Part shown: positions 3,691 through 23,180 of the stretch, piece by piece | How the letters are laid out: the number at the start of each line of letters is the position of its first letter | Position numbering within the stretch: the stretch's first letter is position 1 | Assembly: GCF_000422245.1 (NCBI RefSeq) | Contig: NZ_ATHI01000026.1 | Location: forward strand, 248,001 to 312,000 | DNA from: Alkalidesulfovibrio alkalitolerans DSM 16529 | GTDB taxonomy: Bacteria; Desulfobacterota; Desulfovibrionia; Desulfovibrionales; Desulfovibrionaceae | DNA: 64,000 nt | Reading direction: 5' to 3' | Program-made: the position numbers and the translations under genes | The notes under the pieces: model-generated | Told to the model about the DNA's origin: nothing | The model's database searches: none | The model's input: only the letters and a program-made list of their open reading frames with translations

Positions 3691-4974
3691 ATGGGCCACC
3701 GCTTCCTTCCCGACCTTTCCGCGGACGAGATCGCCGCGCGCCAGCTTCAGGGCCTCAAGTGGACCGTGGAGCACGCCTTCGCGGGTTCGCCGCACTACCA
3801 GCGGACGTTTCGCGAGGTGGGGCTTCGCCCCGGCGACGTGACCTCCCTCGACGACCTATCGCGGCTGCCCTTCACGAGCGTGGAGGATCTGCGCGAGGGC
3901 TACCCGCTGCCGCTGCTCTCCGTGCCCGAGGAACAGGTGGTGCGCATCCACGCCTCGTCGGGCACCACGGGCAAGAGGAAGGTGTTGGCCTACACCCAGA
4001 ACGACGTGAACACCTGGATGGACATGATGGCCCGCTGCTACGAGCTTGCGGGCTGCACTCCGCTCGATCGCGTGCAGATCTGCGTGGGCTACGGGCTGTG
4101 GACGGCCGGGGTGGGCTTTCAGCTCGGCTGCGAGCGGCTTGGAGCCATGGCCCTGCCCGTGGGGCCGGGCATGCTCGACATCCAGGTCCAGATCCTGACC
4201 GACCTTGGGGCCACCACGCTGTGCTCCACGGCCTCCATGGCCCTGCTCATGGCCGAGGAGGTCGAGAAGCGCGGCCTGTCTTCGCGCCTGAAGCTCAAGC
4301 GTGGCATCTTCGGGGCCGAACCCCACACCCCGAAGATGCGCGAGCGCTTCGAGGCGCTTTTGGGCCTTGAAGACTCCTTCGACATCGTGGGCATGACCGA
4401 ACTCTACGGTCCGGGCACGGGCCTGGAGTGCCCGGCCCACGACGGCATCCACTACTGGGCCGATTGCTACATCCTCGAAGTGCTCGACCCCGAGACGCTT
4501 CGCCCCGTGGCTCCGGGCGAGATCGGCGAGATGGTCGTGACCACGCTCTCCAAGGAAGCCGCGCCCCTGATCCGCTACCGCACGCGCGACCTCACGCGCC
4601 TTATCGAGGGCGAGTGCGCCTGCGGAGTCAGGCTGCCGCGTCACGACAAGATCCTCGGCCGCTCCGACGACATGGTCATCGTGCGCGGCGTGAACATCTA
4701 CCCCGGCCAGGTGGCCGAGGTGCTGGGGCGCTTCCCCGAGCTTTCCAGCGAATACCAGATTGTGCTCACCCGCGTGGACGGCAAGGACTACATGGCCGTG
4801 ACCGTGGAGCGCGCCGAGGGCGCGACCGGCGGCGGGGACGAGGCGCTGGCCAAGGCCGTGGGCCAAGTCATGCACAAGTCCCTGCTCGTCTCGGCCCAGA
4901 TCCGCATCGTGGACCACGGCGAGTTGCCCCGGACCTTCGCCAAGTCGCGCCGGGTGCTCGACGAGCGGCAGTAG
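3691..4974 (+). CDS. Phenylacetate-CoA ligase (PaaK)-type AMP-forming ligase
   Basis: A 427-residue member of the ANL adenylating superfamily, PaaK branch, which forms aryl- or arylacetyl-CoA from acid, ATP and CoA. Seen: P-loop HASSGTTGKRK at 87-97, the adenylation motif around MTELYGPG, the core YRTRDL, and the hinge motif GRSDDMVIVRGVNIYP; CACG in the middle is typical of PaaK. It starts 9 bases after trpA behind GGAGAG, so it is probably transcribed with the trp genes. In anaerobes such ligases activate phenylacetate or indoleacetate made from aromatic 2-oxoacids. The substrate here is unknown; indoleacetate, phenylacetate or anthranilate would all fit the context. Confidence 0.88.
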   Translation: MGHRFLPDLSADEIAARQLQGLKWTVEHAFAGSPHYQRTFREVGLRPGDVTSLDDLSRLPFTSVEDLREGYPLPLLSVPEEQVVRIHASSGTTGKRKVLAYTQNDVNTWMDMMARCYELAGCTPLDRVQICVGYGLWTAGVGFQLGCERLGAMALPVGPGMLDIQVQILTDLGATTLCSTASMALLMAEEVEKRGLSSRLKLKRGIFGAEPHTPKMRERFEALLGLEDSFDIVGMTELYGPGTGLECPAHDGIHYWADCYILEVLDPETLRPVAPGEIGEMVVTTLSKEAAPLIRYRTRDLTRLIEGECACGVRLPRHDKILGRSDDMVIVRGVNIYPGQVAEVLGRFPELSSEYQIVLTRVDGKDYMAVTVERAEGATGGGDEALAKAVGQVMHKSLLVSAQIRIVDHGELPRTFAKSRRVLDERQ

Positions 4975-4988
4975 CGGGCTTTTCGGCC

Positions 4989-7226
4989 TCAACCCTCGCG
5001 GGAGGCGGCGAGAATTCCTGAAAGGGCGCTTGCCAGGGAGTCCTGCGAGAAGGGCTTTTGCAGAAAGGCGGAAAAGCCCGCCGCCAGGGCTTCGTCCTGT
5101 TCCCAGGTTTCTATGTGCGCGGACACGGCCAGCAGCGGCAGGTCGCTTGGCCCGGCCAGTCCCGCGCGCACGGCCCTTGCGACATCGACGCCGCTTTGCC
5201 TGGGCATGGAGAGGTCGAGGATCGCGGCCGCGAAGCCGCCCTCGCGCAACATCTCCTGCGCTTCCTGGCCGTCTGCGGCGAGCACGGCCTCGTATCCCAG
5301 CTTTTCCAGAATACGCTTGACCAGATGGCGATTGACCGGGTTGTCCTCGGCCGCCAGCACGCGCGGCCGCGCGGGCGCGGAAGGAACAGGGACGTCCTCG
5401 CCTTCATCGGCCGGAGGCAGGGCCAGCGACAAGGTGAAGGTCGAGCCGCGTCCGGGGACGCTTTCGGCATGCACCTCGCCATCCATGGCCTGGGCCAGAC
5501 GGCGCGCCAGGGCGAGTCCAAGGCCCATGCCGGAGTGCTGTCGCGTGCGCGTCTCCTCAAGCTGGGTGAAGGGCTCGAAGATGCGTTCCAGATCGTCCGG
5601 CGCAATGCCCGGCCCAGTATCGGAGACGGCGAAGGACAGGCGCGTTCGGCCGTCCTTATCGGCGTGGCCCTGCACGCGCAGCCGCACGCCGCCTTGATCC
5701 GTGAACTTGACCGCGTTGCCCACGAGATTCACCAGCACCTGGCGGATGCGGCCCGGATCGCCCAGGAACACCTGGGGCAGCCCTTCGTCCACCCCGGCTT
5801 CGATCCCAAGCCCCTTGCGCGAGGCCTCCGGCGCGAAGAGTTCCCGGACCCCTGCCACGAGCGGTTCGAGCGCGAACGGCGATGTGGATATCTCCATGCG
5901 TCCGGCATCGATGCCGGACAGTTCCAGCACGTCGTTGACCACGGCCAGCAGCGAGCGGCCCGAGGAGAGCACGTATTTTAGGTTCTGGGCCTGCTCCGGA
6001 TCGAGGTCGCTTTCGAGCGTCATTTCCGTGAAGCCGATGATGCCGTTCAGGGGAGTCTTGATCTCATGGCTCATGGTCGCCAGGAATTCCGACTTGGCCC
6101 GGCTGGCCGCAAGCGCTCGCTGCGTGGCCACGGCCAATTCGGAGCGCGCTCTGTCGTGTTTCTCCACCTCGCTGCGCAGGCTGTCCAGCGCCTTTTCGAG
6201 GTCGCCCTCGACGCGGCCGATGCGCGCGTTGATGAAGAGCATGAGGAACAAGGCGATGACGAGGCCGGAAAGGCCGAGCGAGACCAAAAAACCCTGCATG
6301 GCCGCAAACCGCGCGCTCGTGTCGCGGAGCATGGCCAGTCGGGCCACGGGCTCGCCCCAGTCATCCTTTACCGGCATGGTCACGGCCAGGTAGCGGCGCT
6401 CGCCGGTTTCGATCACGAAGGGACTGTTTGCGCCTAAATTTCCGTTCAGGGTTGTGGTCAGCCCTTCGTTCGTGGACGGATCAAGGCGGCGGGCAAGGTC
6501 GTCGGGGAAGGCGGGCAAGGTCGATTGGACCACGACCGCGCCGGGCAGGCGGTCCCAGTCGCTGCCGATCTGCGCGCCCTTGCCTTGCAGCCACGAGTCG
6601 CGGTCCAGGTGGCGCTTGTCCAGGGTCAGCACGAGTTCCACGTCCAACAGCCTGGCCAGGGCGGGAAGGATGTGCTCGATGTCCTCGCTGATCTCGATGA
6701 ACCCGATCACATGGCCGTCGAGCGACACGGGGCGGACCACGCGCAGACTGAACGAGCCAAGCGGCCCAAGCTCCAAGCCGTGCGCCTCCTTTTCCGTGGC
6801 GCGGGCGTCGCGTAGGGTCTTGCGGTCGATGCGGTCGCCGAAGAGCGAAGGAGAGTGCATCCGCAAGAGCGCCGTGCCCTGCGCGTCGATGAAATACAGA
6901 TGCGTCACGCGGAAGCGGCTGTTCAGCCGCTCGTAGGCCGGACCCGCGAGCGAGGCCAGTCGTACGCGGTCGCGGGTGGCCAGCGCCGCGATGAGTGGCG
7001 GATCGCTGGCCAGGAAATCCATGAAGCCCGAGAAGAGTGCGGCGTCGTGCTCAATGCTTCGGATGATCTCGCGTTCGAGGCGCGCTCCCATGGCGAGCGC
7101 TTCGTGCTCGGACTGCGACACCATCAGCCGCCAGAATCCGGCCGTGGCCAGCCCGATGAGCGCGAGGATGCATAGCGCCACCGGCAGGAGCACGGCCTGC
7201 TTGATTGAGGGCGCGCGCTCGTTCAC
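4989..7226 (-). CDS. Membrane hybrid sensor histidine kinase / response regulator
   Basis: A 745-residue hybrid kinase. Start chosen at GTG 7226, behind CGGAGCAGCCAC; upstream in-frame codons lack a ribosome-binding site. Order: TM helix ~12-34, periplasmic sensor ~35-310 resembling a double-Cache domain (HLYFIDAQG, VIGFIEISED), TM helix ~312-333, a short coiled linker with no clear HAMP, HisKA with phospho-acceptor His387 in MSHEIKTPLNG, HATPase with the N box around residue 504, DTGPGI at 536-541 and GMGLGLAL at 566-573, then a receiver domain with Glu627/Asp628, phospho-acceptor Asp671 and Lys724. The signal is unknown. It lies downstream of fbaB on the same strand, separated by a hairpin, so it is not clearly in one operon with it. 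Confidence 0.93.
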   Translation of the reverse strand: MNERAPSIKQAVLLPVALCILALIGLATAGFWRLMVSQSEHEALAMGARLEREIIRSIEHDAALFSGFMDFLASDPPLIAALATRDRVRLASLAGPAYERLNSRFRVTHLYFIDAQGTALLRMHSPSLFGDRIDRKTLRDARATEKEAHGLELGPLGSFSLRVVRPVSLDGHVIGFIEISEDIEHILPALARLLDVELVLTLDKRHLDRDSWLQGKGAQIGSDWDRLPGAVVVQSTLPAFPDDLARRLDPSTNEGLTTTLNGNLGANSPFVIETGERRYLAVTMPVKDDWGEPVARLAMLRDTSARFAAMQGFLVSLGLSGLVIALFLMLFINARIGRVEGDLEKALDSLRSEVEKHDRARSELAVATQRALAASRAKSEFLATMSHEIKTPLNGIIGFTEMTLESDLDPEQAQNLKYVLSSGRSLLAVVNDVLELSGIDAGRMEISTSPFALEPLVAGVRELFAPEASRKGLGIEAGVDEGLPQVFLGDPGRIRQVLVNLVGNAVKFTDQGGVRLRVQGHADKDGRTRLSFAVSDTGPGIAPDDLERIFEPFTQLEETRTRQHSGMGLGLALARRLAQAMDGEVHAESVPGRGSTFTLSLALPPADEGEDVPVPSAPARPRVLAAEDNPVNRHLVKRILEKLGYEAVLAADGQEAQEMLREGGFAAAILDLSMPRQSGVDVARAVRAGLAGPSDLPLLAVSAHIETWEQDEALAAGFSAFLQKPFSQDSLASALSGILAASREG

Positions 7227-18590: not shown

Positions 18591-18972
18591 GCAAGGCTCC
18601 TTTGCGAGGCGGCGGGTCCGCCTGCGCGATGAGTAGCGCAATGCGAGGCCGCCCGGCAAGAAGCGCGGGGAAAAAATATCATGGCCCCGCCACGTGGTGG
18701 CGTGTACCGGAAGAGAGCGCCATCGCCTCGGACGGTCCGGAATTTGACTTTGCCACCTGGAAAAGGCAGATACGATGCAGTATCCAAGTCGAACCGTCAG
18801 GGCGTGGGTCTGGACGGAGCGATGTTCTTGACACCGGTTTAAACGGATGTTTAGGTGCTCCGCGTGGCGGCTTGGGCCGCTGCGGCAGCAAATGCACGTG
18901 TGGGAGGGGTTGTCGTGCAAGACGAGCCTTTTTGTGGCTCGGTGCCGCGTCAGGCAGCCATGGGGAACACGG
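18591..18972. other. Intergenic region between divergent thiM and mla operon
   Basis: 382 bases without a credible gene; the open frames here are extensions of the neighbours. It contains the thiM ribosome-binding site at one end and a candidate mla promoter (18828-18856). I looked for a TPP riboswitch (no CTGAGA or GGATAATGCC-type core on either strand) and saw none. Confidence 0.6.
18828..18856 (+). promoter_or_regulatory. Candidate sigma-70 promoter for the mla operon
   Basis: A perfect -35 TTGACA (18828-18833) is followed after 17 bases by TTAGGT (18851-18856) with TG one base upstream, an extended -10 arrangement. The -10 hexamer itself is poor. It would give a leader of about 110 bases before mlaE. 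The spacer holds the near-palindrome CCGGTTTAAACGG. Confidence 0.4.
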
Positions 18973-19764
18973 ATGATGGTCAGCGCGCCACTTGAGTGGC
19001 TGGGCCGAAGGGCCCTCTCTTTTCTGCTCGAATCCGGGCGCTACGCCTGCTTTTCCGCGCGCGCCGCGGCCCTTGCGTTACGGCCGCCGTTTCAGCCCGT
19101 CAGGGTGGTGGAGCAGGTTTATTTCATCGGTGTGCGCTCCATGTCCGTCATCCTGCTCATAGGTCTCTTCACGGGCATGGTCCTCGGCCTTCAAGGGTAT
19201 TACGCGCTGGTCAAGTTCGGCTCCGAAGGCATGCTTGGCGCGGCCGTGGCGTTGTCGCTGATTCGCGAGTTGGGTCCTGTGCTCACGGCCATCATGGTCA
19301 TCGGCCGCGCGGGTTCGGCCATGACCGCCGAGATCGGCGTGATGCGCATCTCCGAGCAGATTGACGCACTGGACACCATGGACATCAATCCCGTGCGCTA
19401 CCTGGTCAGTCCCAAGGTGGCCGGAGCAGTCATAAGCTTTCCCCTGCTCACGGCCTTCTTCGACGTCATGGGCATCATCGGCGGCTACCTCACGGGCGTG
19501 GTCATGCTCGGGGTGAACGCGGGCGTCTATTGGTACCGCATTGAGACGGCCGTGGAGATGGCCGACGTCACGGGCGGCTTCGTCAAGTCGCTGGTCTTCG
19601 CGCTCATCGTGGCCACCATGTGCTGCTACCAGGGCTATTACACCCACCTGCGCAGGCAGGGTTTCGGCGCGGTGGGCGTCTCACTCTCCACGACCACGGC
19701 CGTGGTCATTTCCTGCGTCATGGTGCTCATCAGCGATTACGTCATAACCTCTTTCTTCATGTAA
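18973..19764 (+). CDS. mlaE: Lipid-transport ABC permease MlaE
   Basis: 263 residues, normal for MlaE, with about five to six membrane helices. Seen: VYFIGVRSMSVILLIGLFTG and the conserved cytoplasmic block RELGPVLTAIMVIGRAGSA followed by EIGVMRISEQIDALDTM, diagnostic of the MlaE family. It is the inner-membrane core of the Mla complex, which moves phospholipids between the outer and inner membrane. The chosen start is the first of two tandem ATGs (18973, 18976) after GGGGAACACGG. First gene of mlaE-F-D-C-A; no STAS subunit (MlaB) is seen. Confidence 0.95.
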   Translation: MMVSAPLEWLGRRALSFLLESGRYACFSARAAALALRPPFQPVRVVEQVYFIGVRSMSVILLIGLFTGMVLGLQGYYALVKFGSEGMLGAAVALSLIRELGPVLTAIMVIGRAGSAMTAEIGVMRISEQIDALDTMDINPVRYLVSPKVAGAVISFPLLTAFFDVMGIIGGYLTGVVMLGVNAGVYWYRIETAVEMADVTGGFVKSLVFALIVATMCCYQGYYTHLRRQGFGAVGVSLSTTTAVVISCVMVLISDYVITSFFM

Positions 19765-19767
19765 GCC

Positions 19768-20967
19768 ATGGCCGAATCGCTCATTCAATTCAAGAACCTG
19801 CGCAAGCGCTTCGGCGACAACGTGGTGCTAGACGGCGTGGATCTCGAATTCTTTGAGGGCCAGGTCACGACCATCATCGGCAAGTCCGGCGCGGGCAAGA
19901 GCGTGATGATCAAGCACATCGTGGGTCTTCTGGCCCCCGATTCGGGCGAGATTTTGGTGCGCGGGCGCCCTCTTTCGACCATGGACCGCGAGGAGCGGCG
20001 GGCCTTCAAGAGCCGCGTGAGCTACATGTTCCAGAGCAACGCACTGTTCGACTCCATGAACGTCTTCGACAACGTGGCCCTGCCCCTTCGGGAGCGCCGC
20101 AAGACGCCCGAGGCCAAGATCCGAGAGAAGGTCATGGGGCTGCTCGACATCCTGGAGCTTCCGGCCGCAGCCGACCGCTATCCCTCGCAGCTTTCCGGCG
20201 GTATGCAAAAGCGTGTAGCCTTGGCCAGGGCCCTGGTCAGCGATCCCGAGATCGTGCTCTTCGACGAGCCCACCACAGGCCTCGACCCCCTGCGCAAGAA
20301 CTCGGTGCTGGCCATGGTCGGCCACTACCAGCGCCGTTTCGGATTCACGGCCATCATGGTCAGCCACGATGTGCCCGACGTCTTCTATATCTCGAACCGC
20401 ATCGCCATCCTGGACAAGGGCAAGATTCTCTTCCAGGGCAGTCCAGTGGAACTCGAACGCTCGGGCAACGAGGTGGCCGCGGAATTTTTGGCCAGCCTCG
20501 AGAACCTCGAGAACGACCTCGTGGGCCTTGTGGGTCCGCACGCCCTTTCCGTCGCGCTGGCGGAAGAGGGCGGGCAGAGCCGTCCGGCCGCGCTTTTGTC
20601 CCTGGCCGACGTGGCTGAATTGCGCTCAGGGATAGGCGACTTGGCAACGCACCGGGTGCTCGACGCCCTGGCCGGGCTGGCCCGGGCCAAGGGTGGGGAG
20701 GGCGCGCTGCTCGGCCGCACGGGGCCCGGAGAGATTTTGTGCGTTCTGCCGACGGGAGGCGATGCATCCCGCTTTCTCGACGCGGTGGGCGCGGCGCTGG
20801 GCAACGGCGAGGCTGTCTGCCGTTTCGGAGCCGAGGGCCTGTTTGCGAGTCCCGGCGTGCTCGGCGCGCCAGCGGACATATCCAAGGGATGCATTGAGGC
20901 CGCCGTCGCGGCGCGTGCCTCGGTTCATGAATTGGGCCGCATGCGATGCGGCGACGGGGAGTCATGA
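19768..20967 (+). CDS. mlaF: MlaF-type ABC ATPase fused to a degenerate GGDEF-like domain
   Basis: 399 residues; typical MlaF is about 260. Residues 1-245 are the ATPase: Walker A GKSGAGKS (38-45), Q-loop FQSNALFDSM, signature LSGGM (142-146), Walker B VLFDEP (163-168), H-loop His200. Residues ~247-392 read like a GGDEF domain in the right order: NDLVGLVGPHALSVALAEE in place of DxLTGLxNRRxLxxxL, a central THRVLDALAGLAR, then RTGPGEILCVLP where RxGGDEFxxLLP is expected. GPGEI (319-323) replaces GGDEF, so no cyclase activity is likely; it may bind nucleotide or a partner. It starts 3 bases after mlaE. Confidence 0.9.
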   Translation: MAESLIQFKNLRKRFGDNVVLDGVDLEFFEGQVTTIIGKSGAGKSVMIKHIVGLLAPDSGEILVRGRPLSTMDREERRAFKSRVSYMFQSNALFDSMNVFDNVALPLRERRKTPEAKIREKVMGLLDILELPAAADRYPSQLSGGMQKRVALARALVSDPEIVLFDEPTTGLDPLRKNSVLAMVGHYQRRFGFTAIMVSHDVPDVFYISNRIAILDKGKILFQGSPVELERSGNEVAAEFLASLENLENDLVGLVGPHALSVALAEEGGQSRPAALLSLADVAELRSGIGDLATHRVLDALAGLARAKGGEGALLGRTGPGEILCVLPTGGDASRFLDAVGAALGNGEAVCRFGAEGLFASPGVLGAPADISKGCIEAAVAARASVHELGRMRCGDGES

Positions 20968-21428
20968 GTATGAGCGGCAACAGGGTGAAACTGGAATTGG
21001 CGGTGGGCGTCTTTGTCTTCATCTGCCTTTTGAGCGTGGGTTATCTGACCATCAAGCTCGGCAAGATGGAATTGGTCGGCGGGGACAACTATCCCCTGGA
21101 GGCCAAGTTCACCTCGGTCACGGGCCTTCGCGCGGGCAGTTCGGTGGAAGTCGCGGGCGTGCCCATCGGGCGCGTGGGCTCCATCAGTCTCGACCCGCAG
21201 GACATGGCCGCCGTGGTCACCCTGCGCATCGCCAACAGCGTGCGCCTGTCGGATGATTCCATTGCCAGCATCAAAACTTCCGGCCTCATCGGCGACAAGT
21301 TCGTCGAGATTTCGCCGGGTGGTTCGGGCGACTTTCTGGCTGCGGGCGGACGAATCGTGGATACGCAATCCGCTGTGGACATCGAAGGGCTGATCAGTAA
21401 ATATGCGTTCGGTAACGTCGAAAAGTAG
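20964..21428 (+). CDS. mlaD: MCE-domain lipid-binding protein MlaD
   Basis: 154 residues: one N-terminal TM helix (~11-29), then a single MCE domain with LEAKFTSVTGLRAGSSVEVAG split by VPIGRVGSISLD, SIASIKTSGLIGDKFVEISPG, and a short C-terminal helix. MlaD hexamers form the periplasmic lipid channel above MlaFE. The chosen start overlaps the mlaF stop as ATGA; an alternative ATG follows at 20970. Its short C-terminal region after the MCE fold fits the E. coli type. Confidence 0.94.
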   Translation: MSMSGNRVKLELAVGVFVFICLLSVGYLTIKLGKMELVGGDNYPLEAKFTSVTGLRAGSSVEVAGVPIGRVGSISLDPQDMAAVVTLRIANSVRLSDDSIASIKTSGLIGDKFVEISPGGSGDFLAAGGRIVDTQSAVDIEGLISKYAFGNVEK

Positions 21429-21441
21429 CAGGGGGAGCATC

Positions 21442-22095
21442 ATGTCGGTACAGGTTTTCGTGTCCGCGCCCGGCGTGCGGACGTCGCGGCTTAGGGGGGT
21501 CTGGCGCCTCCTGGCCGCGTGCCTTGTGGCGGCCGTGTGCCTCACGCCCGCTCCGGCAATGGCGGAAAAGCCCATGGACGCCATGAAGGATTTCGTGGGC
21601 AAGGTGCTCGACGTGCTGCGCGATCCGGCCTTCAAGGACGGGGCCATGCGTCAGGAGCAGCGCAACAAGCTTTCCGCCCTGGCCGACGACATTTTCGATT
21701 GGGTGGAGCTTTCGCGGCGCACCCTGGCCCTGAACTGGAACCGGCTCGACAGCGACCAGCGCAGGGATTTCGTCGAACTGTACAAGCAGCTCCTGGAGCG
21801 GACCTACATGGACCGAATCCAAGACTACAAGGACGAGGAAGTGGTTTTCAGCGGACAATCCTCGCTCTCCGATACCCAGGTCGAGATACAGACCACGGTG
21901 CGCTCCCAAGGCAAAAACATCCCCATCAATTACAGGCTTATCAACCGCGCCGACAGTTGGCGGATCTACGACGTGCAGGTCGAGGGCGTGAGTTTGGTGC
22001 AGAATTATCGTACCCAGTTCAACAACATTCTGGCGAGCAAGTCCCCTGACGAAATGATCGAGGATCTGCGACGCAAGGTCGCGGAAGGAGCCTAG
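21442..22095 (+). CDS. mlaC: Periplasmic phospholipid carrier MlaC
   Basis: 217 residues. An N-terminal signal peptide (hydrophobic core ~23-36, cleavage after AMA near residue 41) leads to a mature MlaC/Tgt2-like domain with VLRDPAFKDG, DDIFDWVELSRRTLALNW, FVELYKQLLERTYMDRIQ and SWRIYDVQVEGVSLVQNYRTQF split over the C-terminal half. The protein ferries phospholipid across the periplasm between MlaA and MlaFEDB. Start at ATG 21442 behind GGGGGAGCATC, 13 bases after mlaD; an ATG further up would overlap mlaD. Confidence 0.94.
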   Translation: MSVQVFVSAPGVRTSRLRGVWRLLAACLVAAVCLTPAPAMAEKPMDAMKDFVGKVLDVLRDPAFKDGAMRQEQRNKLSALADDIFDWVELSRRTLALNWNRLDSDQRRDFVELYKQLLERTYMDRIQDYKDEEVVFSGQSSLSDTQVEIQTTVRSQGKNIPINYRLINRADSWRIYDVQVEGVSLVQNYRTQFNNILASKSPDEMIEDLRRKVAEGA

Positions 22096-22100
22096 ACGCC

Positions 22101-23180
22101 GTGGAAACCGGAGCCCGTCGCCCGCTGTCGCCGAGTCTGACCGTCCTCGCCGTCCTGGCCGTCCTGCTGACTCCGCTGGTCGCGGTCGCCGCGGTTGCCG
22201 GGCATGGTCCGGCAGGCCCGGCGCAGACGCAGGACTGGTCCTCGATCTGCTACTGGCACGAGCCCGGTGCGGTGGCTCCCGTCCTCCCGGCAGAACAGGC
22301 GGTCGCCCTCGAGACGGCGGCAATTCCCGCCCAGTCAGGCCAGAACCCGCGTGACGTGACCATCGTCAGCCGCAGCTACTTCGACACCTCGCTCCTGCTC
22401 GTGACTACGACCTCGGCAACCACCGGGGAGCAGAGCACGCGCGTCTTCTCCGACGCCGATCTCGACGCGGCCTACGTACCCGAGGACGACGACCTGGGAC
22501 ATCACGAGCCGCACGACGATCCCTGGGAAGGCTTCAACAGGGCCATGTTCCAGTTCAACGACACGCTTTACTTCTGGATATTCGATCCTGCGGCCACGGG
22601 CTATGCCATCCTGGTGCCCCAGCCCGCGCGTATCGGCATCGCCAACGCCTTCGAGAACATCAAGTTTCCCATCCGCTTCGTGAACAACCTCCTCCAGGGC
22701 AAGGTGGAGAACTCCTTCCGCGAACTGCTCAAATTTCTGGTGAACACCATCTTCGGCCTGGGCGGCATCGTGGAGAGCAGCCGCGACCACGCCTATCTCA
22801 ACCCGCCCAAACAGGATCTGGACAAGACTTTCCGCACCTGGGGCATCGAGAGCGGCAACTACGTGGTCTGGCCCATCTTCGGCCCCTATTCCGTGCGCCA
22901 TACCTTCGGCGACATCGGCGACACCTTCCTGTGGCCGCCGACCTACCTCAGGCCCTGGTACGTACCCACGCTCATCTGGATCGGCGAGAAGACGAACGCC
23001 CTGAGCCTGCGTCTGGGCGACTACGAGGCGATGAAGGAAGCCAGCCTCGATCCCTACGTGGCCTTGCGCGACCTCTACATGCAGTACAGGAATCGCCCTG
23101 ATTTCGATCCCTACTACGACGATCCGTCGAAGAAGCCCGACGAACCCGAATTCATGCCCCTGCGCGAGGGCGTCAAGTAG
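22101..23180 (+). CDS. mlaA: MlaA (VacJ)-family outer-membrane lipid-transport protein with N-terminal extension
   Basis: 359 residues; E. coli MlaA is about 250. The MlaA domain starts at DPWEGFNR (140-147) and runs through FNDTLYFWIFDP, RFVNNLLQGK, ELLKFLVNTIFGLGG, WPIFGPYSVR. Residues ~14-34 are a signal peptide without a lipobox, and residues 40-135 are an acidic, low-similarity extension with DDDLGHHEPHDDP just before the domain. The usual family member is a lipoprotein, so anchoring must differ here. Start at GTG 22101 behind GGAAGGAG. Last gene of the mla operon, 5 bases after mlaC. Confidence 0.93.
   Translation: METGARRPLSPSLTVLAVLAVLLTPLVAVAAVAGHGPAGPAQTQDWSSICYWHEPGAVAPVLPAEQAVALETAAIPAQSGQNPRDVTIVSRSYFDTSLLLVTTTSATTGEQSTRVFSDADLDAAYVPEDDDLGHHEPHDDPWEGFNRAMFQFNDTLYFWIFDPAATGYAILVPQPARIGIANAFENIKFPIRFVNNLLQGKVENSFRELLKFLVNTIFGLGGIVESSRDHAYLNPPKQDLDKTFRTWGIESGNYVVWPIFGPYSVRHTFGDIGDTFLWPPTYLRPWYVPTLIWIGEKTNALSLRLGDYEAMKEASLDPYVALRDLYMQYRNRPDFDPYYDDPSKKPDEPEFMPLREGVK

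Follow-up and report, generated by a model that had tools for sequence, protein, structure and literature searches.

A degenerate GGDEF domain at the C-terminus of an MlaF-type ABC ATPase in Alkalidesulfovibrio alkalitolerans and other Desulfobacterota

The mla operon

Using Pfam, an mlaE-mlaF-mlaD-mlaC-mlaA operon has been identified at positions 18847-23180 on the plus strand of the 64,000-nucleotide stretch of the Alkalidesulfovibrio alkalitolerans DSM 16529 genome that was analysed (called the window here). The permease gene, mlaE, lies at 18847-19764 (+; PF02405, E 1.2e-78); its product carries no fused STAS domain, PF02405 being the sole family found at E <= 0.01. The open reading frame at 19768-20967 (+) encodes a 399 aa fusion of an MlaF ATPase (ABC_tran over residues 21-170, E 9e-34; the top NCBIfam model is MlaF) to a degenerate C-terminal GGDEF domain, referred to below as the tail. 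It is followed by an mlaD of the short type at 20964-21428 (+; PF02470, E 2.4e-22; TIGR04430 above its cut-off), whose in-frame ATG overlaps the mlaF stop codon (ATGA, 20964-20967), the start given by the ORF tool being 20946. Next come the genes for the periplasmic lipid chaperone MlaC (21403-22095, +; PF05494, E 3e-45) and the outer-membrane lipoprotein MlaA, or VacJ (22101-23180, +; PF04333, E 8.9e-62), and the operon is a complete Mla lipid-transport system in the order E-F-D-C-A. The mlaC product scores 88 bits with the model for HpnM, a hopanoid-associated protein, against 35 bits with the E. coli MlaC model, both scores being below the respective cut-offs.

No MlaB or other STAS gene was detected in the window's operon with Pfam and a STAS profile, as the initial annotation had stated. 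Six STAS_2 domains above the Pfam cut-off are encoded elsewhere in the same genome, and a STAS partner for this MlaF may be encoded in trans. At a distance of about 180 kb (contig C26, 87859-88914), a single open frame of 452 aa encodes a second MlaE together with a STAS domain; this is probably part of another MCE-type system with a STAS part of its own.

The ATPase part of the fusion

Residues 1-242 of the fusion protein (19768-20493, +) match positions 6-245 of the 270 in the NCBIfam MlaF model NF008809. Walker A (GKSGAGKS), the signature (LSGGMQKR), Walker B and the H-loop are all intact, and Walker A, the signature, DEPTTGLDP and H200 lie in columns that are invariant among 31 aligned sequences, the window's included. 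The signature carries Met (SGGM), a residue described for this position as well conserved among Mla- and TGD-like systems (PMC7367683). By sequence the protein is classed as MlaF-type and not as an equivalog of the E. coli protein, because NF008809 outscores the other NCBIfam models among the 185 that matched but its score, 194.3 bits, is below the equivalog cut-off of 441. The best PDB chains by sequence are the mycobacterial ATPase 8j5q (8.8e-54) and 7d06 (1.5e-53; named "ABC transporter ATP-binding protein"), while the chain named MlaF in 6xbd matches the ATPase domain at E 5.1e-50. The match to the MlaF model stops at residue 242, model position 245, and this is where the tail starts.

Identification of the tail as a GGDEF domain

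The tail comprises the last 157 residues, 243-399 (20494-20964, +), and is joined to the ATPase part by a predicted helical linker, residues 235-252 (20470-20523, +; helix H7-24 in the tail model). The initial annotation had read a degenerate GGDEF-like domain into residues 245-399, a boundary that is right to within a few residues, from motifs that are indeed present: NDLVGLVGPHALSVAL at 249-264, VLDALAGLAR from 297 on and RTGPGEILCVLP at 317-328. Such a motif reading was insufficient by itself, since the window tail scores only 4.6 bits against a profile built from six canonical GGDEF domains encoded in its own genome, below the best shuffled sequence (6.4 bits). Likewise, Pfam gave no match for the window tail alone, and a phmmer search of PDB with it returned a single match at E 1.4.

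The homology is established by way of its relatives, which match PF00990 and to which the window tail belongs. MlaF proteins were collected within the window's order, where 83 of 150 genomes have a match at E <= 1e-50 and tails occur in several families, and 27 tails, including that of the window, were aligned (set A1). Taken singly, 25 of these 27 match PF00990 at a lax E <= 1, the window member giving no match; in a partly overlapping set A2, with the window among its 16 members, 14 match at E <= 1e-3, the best at 1.6e-21, and one tail reaches 58.6 bits against the PF00990 gathering cut-off of 23.8. The six-domain canonical profile mentioned above recognises 54 of the 69 tailed relatives with E < 1e-3. 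Conversely, a tail profile built without the window's genus finds the window tail with 47.1 bits (E 1.9e-13), the best of 2000 shuffles scoring 7.0. The PDB matches of the 27-tail profile, at E 8.6e-20 to 1.5e-4, nearly all have GGDEF, diguanylate cyclase or c-di-GMP-related names, FimX among them (a few are named only "uncharacterized protein" or "ammonium transporter"), and clearly unrelated names start at E 0.26. The same profile matches 18 further places in the window's genome, the best at 5.1e-17.

The AlphaFold model of the tail alone (pLDDT 91.5, pTM 0.85) has a GGDEF fold. When it was compared with known structures, all 50 listed Foldseek rows and all 50 listed VIA rows were GGDEF proteins, including a few (e.g. 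3bre and DosP) whose titles do not name them as such; the structure check proposed in the initial annotation gave no indication of another fold in these rows. The best VIA match is 4zmm_B (Z 12.9, rmsd 3.0 over 141 residues). FimX is again among the fold matches, as are two PleD structures with ppGpp or pppGpp (9g85 and 9g86). In the full-length monomer model (pLDDT 86.2) the junction is less well defined, with pLDDT 74 for residues 231-240 and 67 for 241-250, and the orientation of the two domains is uncertain (pTM 0.66). On sequence comparison and predicted structure together, the identification of residues ~243-399 as a degenerate GGDEF domain is confirmed.

Active-site residues and conserved positions

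In the alignment to the six canonical domains of the same genome, the GGDEF motif is replaced by G319-P-G-E-I323 (20722-20736, +), in which the second Gly and the metal-binding Asp/Glu are gone and Glu322 is retained, and S278-L-A280 (20599-20607, +) stands where the canonical domains have the metal-binding DxD. These losses are general. Among 69 tailed proteins, a number that includes near-identical relatives, none has the metal Asp, the GG pair or a GG[DE]EF motif, and a second scan, overlapping in part with these, likewise shows no GG[DE]EF at any of its 80 loci. In active cyclases a particular Asn binds guanine, and the c-di-GMP I-site, RxxD, sits just before the GGDEF motif. Here N occupies the guanine-binding position in 5 of the 69, and RxxD is seen in 4, the window not being one of them, against all six of the canonical domains. 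With the metal Asp and the GG pair missing from all 69, the tail should not work as a cyclase; on this the initial annotation, judging from residues, appears to have been correct.

Other features are kept or are new. The [LIV]TG[LIM] turn is retained in 49 of the 69 tails and the Gly of the "GH" position in 65, and the hairpin in place of GGDEF is fairly conserved, with Arg in 84 and Pro in 76 of 98 non-redundant tails (from a total of 148). Close to the C-terminus lies Cys394 (20947-20949, +), in a family-conserved column that is Cys in 69 of the 87 non-redundant sequences having a residue there; the commonest residues at this place in the canonical GGDEF domains aligned are G, R and K. A second Cys, likewise not shared with those canonical domains, is conserved in 64 of the 98 tails; the window and its genus have none in that column. 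Both cysteines are present in 59 of the 98 tails, neither in 17, the C-terminal one alone in 17 and the other alone in 5, which is suggestive of coupling, though the relatives are not independent of each other; the two could form a redox or metal site.

Occurrence and history

The initial annotation had suggested looking for the same fusion in other Desulfovibrionales mla operons. It is found there, but that scope proved too narrow, as the fusion extends beyond the order. Across the phylum, 297 genomes were sampled; an MlaF-like match at E <= 1e-60 occurs in 180 of them, and most of those listed have short frames. Of the best-scoring 29 loci from other families that were read, 28 have the tail, and the phylum search added 5 further tailed genomes (L155-L159). 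Tailed MlaF is thus a minority form, seen in at least 33 of the 296 other genomes, across many families. In a scan of named genomes the best 80 of 222 loci carry the tail (one is cut by a contig end); their titles are those of Deltaproteobacteria, Desulfobacterota and groups of these, among them Desulfatibacillum alkenivorans DSM 16219, Smithella, Syntrophus and a Desulfohalobiaceae bacterium, whose family belongs to Desulfovibrionales in Thermodesulfobacteriota.

The trimmed lengths of the MlaF proteins fall into two classes, 245-271 residues and, for the 69 tailed ones, 383-416, with two incomplete cases between them. Proteins of the shorter class stop about 3-30 residues past the point where the tail starts. 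Two that are short by length have the tail all the same, L019, which hits the locus end, and L050, which is 5'-incomplete and near a contig start, giving a tailed total of 71.

In a tree made from the ATPase part only of 114 sampled proteins (midpoint rooting), all 71 tailed proteins lie in one clade with support 0.741, the next wider nodes having 0.914 and 0.999. Nested within it are tail-less proteins: a 13-member clade from the window's own family (0.99) and two single proteins, L182 and L183, which sit where the support of the tree is weak. One gain of the tail followed by two or three losses fits best, while the modest support of the node that holds all the tails leaves room for several independent gains. 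For the 13-member clade, 10 loci were looked at (L162-L168 and L170-L172). They carry orphan tail-less mlaF genes, 54-58% identical to the window's MlaF, and none has mlaE, mlaD, mlaC or mlaA nearby; 8 are flanked by more than 4 kb in each direction, L170 and L171 being at contig ends. In these genomes mlaE is encoded elsewhere.

Among three genomes of the window's genus, dN/dS (NG86) is 0.37-0.45 for the tail against 0.19-0.21 for the ATPase part, a rough figure given that synonymous divergence in the tail is about 1; amino acid identity within the genus is 52-57% for the tail and 82-85% for the ATPase part. The tail of these genomes is under constraint, though it changes faster than the ATPase part does.

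Gene neighbourhoods of tailed and tail-less mlaF

The gene content of tailed operons was examined for Mla and STAS genes in a hand-picked set, not a random sample, of 40 tailed and 40 tail-less loci plus the window, about one per genus, some of them cut by contig ends (e.g. L138, L144, L171 and L184). Near the 41 tailed genes, counting the window, MlaE is encoded at 40 loci, MlaD at 41, MlaC at 39, MlaA at 33 and a STAS protein at none; near the 40 tail-less genes the corresponding figures are 30, 30, 15, 10 and 1. The 10 tail-less loci that have no mlaE include L170 and L171. A STAS gene is therefore absent near 39 of the 40 tail-less mlaF genes, or 29 of 30 when only those with a neighbouring mlaE are counted, and the single one found (L169) had itself been a seed of the STAS profile. 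As controls, the STAS search found E. coli MlaB at E 1e-9 and recovered 30 of 30 seeds in a leave-one-out test; at maximum sensitivity it gave one sub-threshold partial match near a tailed mlaF (L124, E 0.041).

A large MlaD is present in 15 of the tail-less systems, never with MlaC nearby, and at none of the tailed loci, so the tail accompanies the chaperone-type Mla system, though systems of this type can also be tail-less. At one locus, L146, there are two tailed mlaF genes on the minus strand (477-1829 and 4731-6062), one within an mlaE-F-D-C-A operon and the other just after it.

Proposed function

In E. coli, an extension of about 25 residues at the C-terminus of MlaF wraps around the neighbouring MlaF and touches MlaB. 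This extension dimerises MlaF; function is abolished when it is deleted and comes back substantially when a GCN4 dimeriser is placed at the MlaF C-terminus (PMC7367683). A dimerising domain at the MlaF C-terminus can therefore serve. By alignment and by the end of the MlaF model match, the tail begins where this extension begins in the E. coli K-12 protein, and it is this placement that leads us to propose, with middling confidence and by analogy, that the dead GGDEF domain is a dimerisation or regulatory module that holds or tunes the ATPase pair. A domain of about 155 residues replaces the short extension of E. coli-type MlaF. Each ATPase of the MlaF2 pair would carry one; the two would meet through the helical linker and GGDEF surfaces, and the paired tails would, with no MlaB, take over what the "handshake" does in E. 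coli. With its catalytic site lost, the domain would remain as a structural or allosteric module, its role comparable to that of the MetN C-terminal domain. In favour of this reading are also the lack of STAS genes near all 41 tailed mlaF, the retention of structural motifs alongside the lost catalytic residues, the constraint on the tail sequence and the grouping of all tailed proteins in one clade. Dimerisation of the ATPase by the tail, one of the roles offered in the initial annotation, is by this comparison plausible. Against it, isolated GGDEF domains are often monomeric. A construct with the degenerate GGDEF domain of BcsE stays monomeric (PMC7439463). Nor is the tail indispensable: it has probably been lost two or three times, and many MlaF proteins of this phylum lack both it and a STAS gene in the vicinity.

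The tail could instead be a ligand sensor, its degenerate pocket binding a nucleotide (GTP or ppGpp) or another small molecule and so switching the ATPase on or off. Regulatory C-terminal domains are known on ABC ATPases such as those of MetNI and ModBC (PMC7367683), PleD with ppGpp or pppGpp is among the fold matches, and the hairpin that replaces GGDEF is still fairly conserved in its Arg and Pro; set against these are the complete loss of the metal Asp and the GG pair and the rarity of the Asn and of RxxD, and such a sensor is possible but doubtful. The last of these weakens the c-di-GMP part of the nucleotide sensing that the initial annotation had envisaged, the window itself having no RxxD. 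Also doubtful, and together with the sensor the main rival to dimerisation, is a docking platform, in which the tail would bind another protein (a regulator, or MlaE or MlaD) in place of MlaB and would not dimerise. E. coli MlaB does bind MlaF and its extension (PMC7367683), and no tailed mlaF of the 41 has a STAS gene near it, but such genes are also missing near 39 of the 40 tail-less mlaF. For the same reason, that tail-less loci of the phylum mostly have no STAS gene either, the suggestion in the initial annotation that the tail stands in for a missing MlaB is weakened. We regard as unlikely a combined form in which this widespread Mla transporter is controlled by exapted cyclase domains, paired beneath its two ATPases and switching them when they receive some signal that is not c-di-GMP; that signal might be redox or metal state, received through the two cysteines that would have become conserved once catalysis was lost.

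That the tail is a fading relic, a once-active fusion now drifting without function, would account for its degenerate active site, its faster evolution than the ATPase part and its two or three later losses. It is nevertheless a very improbable reading in view of the dN/dS values, the open frames and narrow length range across many families, and newly conserved positions such as the two cysteines. An active diguanylate cyclase has the GGDEF fold in its favour and is hardly conceivable with no metal Asp in any of the 69 proteins and no GG[DE]EF motif there or in the 80 loci of the second scan. As for the usual MlaF extension with no relation to GGDEF, the absence of a significant GGDEF match for the window sequence alone is outweighed by the PF00990 matches of its relatives, by the GGDEF proteins in every listed row of both fold comparisons and by the ending of tail-less MlaF within about 30 residues of the tail start, and this reading, contradicted by family matches and fold alike, can be set aside.

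The preferred reading, a dimerising or regulatory tail, bears on how the Mla ATPase stays paired and is regulated without MlaB in most bacteria; MlaA, MlaB and MlaC are sparsely distributed among diderms (PMC10665443). Members of many families of one phylum have an identifiable, different domain at the site of the handshake extension, and the question can for this reason be put to the test by swapping domains in E. coli K-12. With this fusion, an ABC transporter ATPase also joins the settings in which a catalytically dead GGDEF fold has found another use.

Comparison with known systems

The kinds of component seen here -- MlaF, the GGDEF fold and C-terminal regulatory domains on ABC ATPases -- are known, but their combination was not met in the literature searched: no description of an MlaF-GGDEF fusion was found among the listed titles and abstract openings of open-licence PMC papers. 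The architecture may well sit unremarked in databases, since Pfam would flag GGDEF in many such proteins.

With E. coli MlaF and the MlaFEDB complex (NF008809; PDB 6xbd and 6xgy) the window's system shares the ATPase domain, the LSGGM signature with its Met and the partners MlaE, MlaD and MlaC. It differs in having a GGDEF-fold domain of about 155 residues in place of the handshake extension of about 25, and in an operon without MlaB but with mlaA included. The tail shares both fold and sequence family with the GGDEF domains of diguanylate cyclases (PF00990; SadC 4wxw, Dcsbis 4zmm, PleD), from which it is set apart by the loss of the metal Asp and of the GGDEF motif itself, by an I-site in only 4 of 69 tails and by its fusion to an ABC ATPase.

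PelD, BcsE, FimX and GdpP have degenerate GGDEF domains that are used as sensors or scaffolds, and none of the four is known to be part of an ABC ATPase. PelD and BcsE, like the tail, have kept the GGDEF fold after catalysis was lost, though PelD senses c-di-GMP through an I-site (PMC7439463), which the window tail does not have. Among ABC ATPases, MetN and ModC (PMC7367683) and FbpC (PMC2896483) are comparable in having a C-terminal domain, which is thought to control ATPase pairing; the domains of MetNI are ferredoxin-like and those of ModBC are TOBE (PMC7367683), whereas the predicted fold of the window tail is that of GGDEF.
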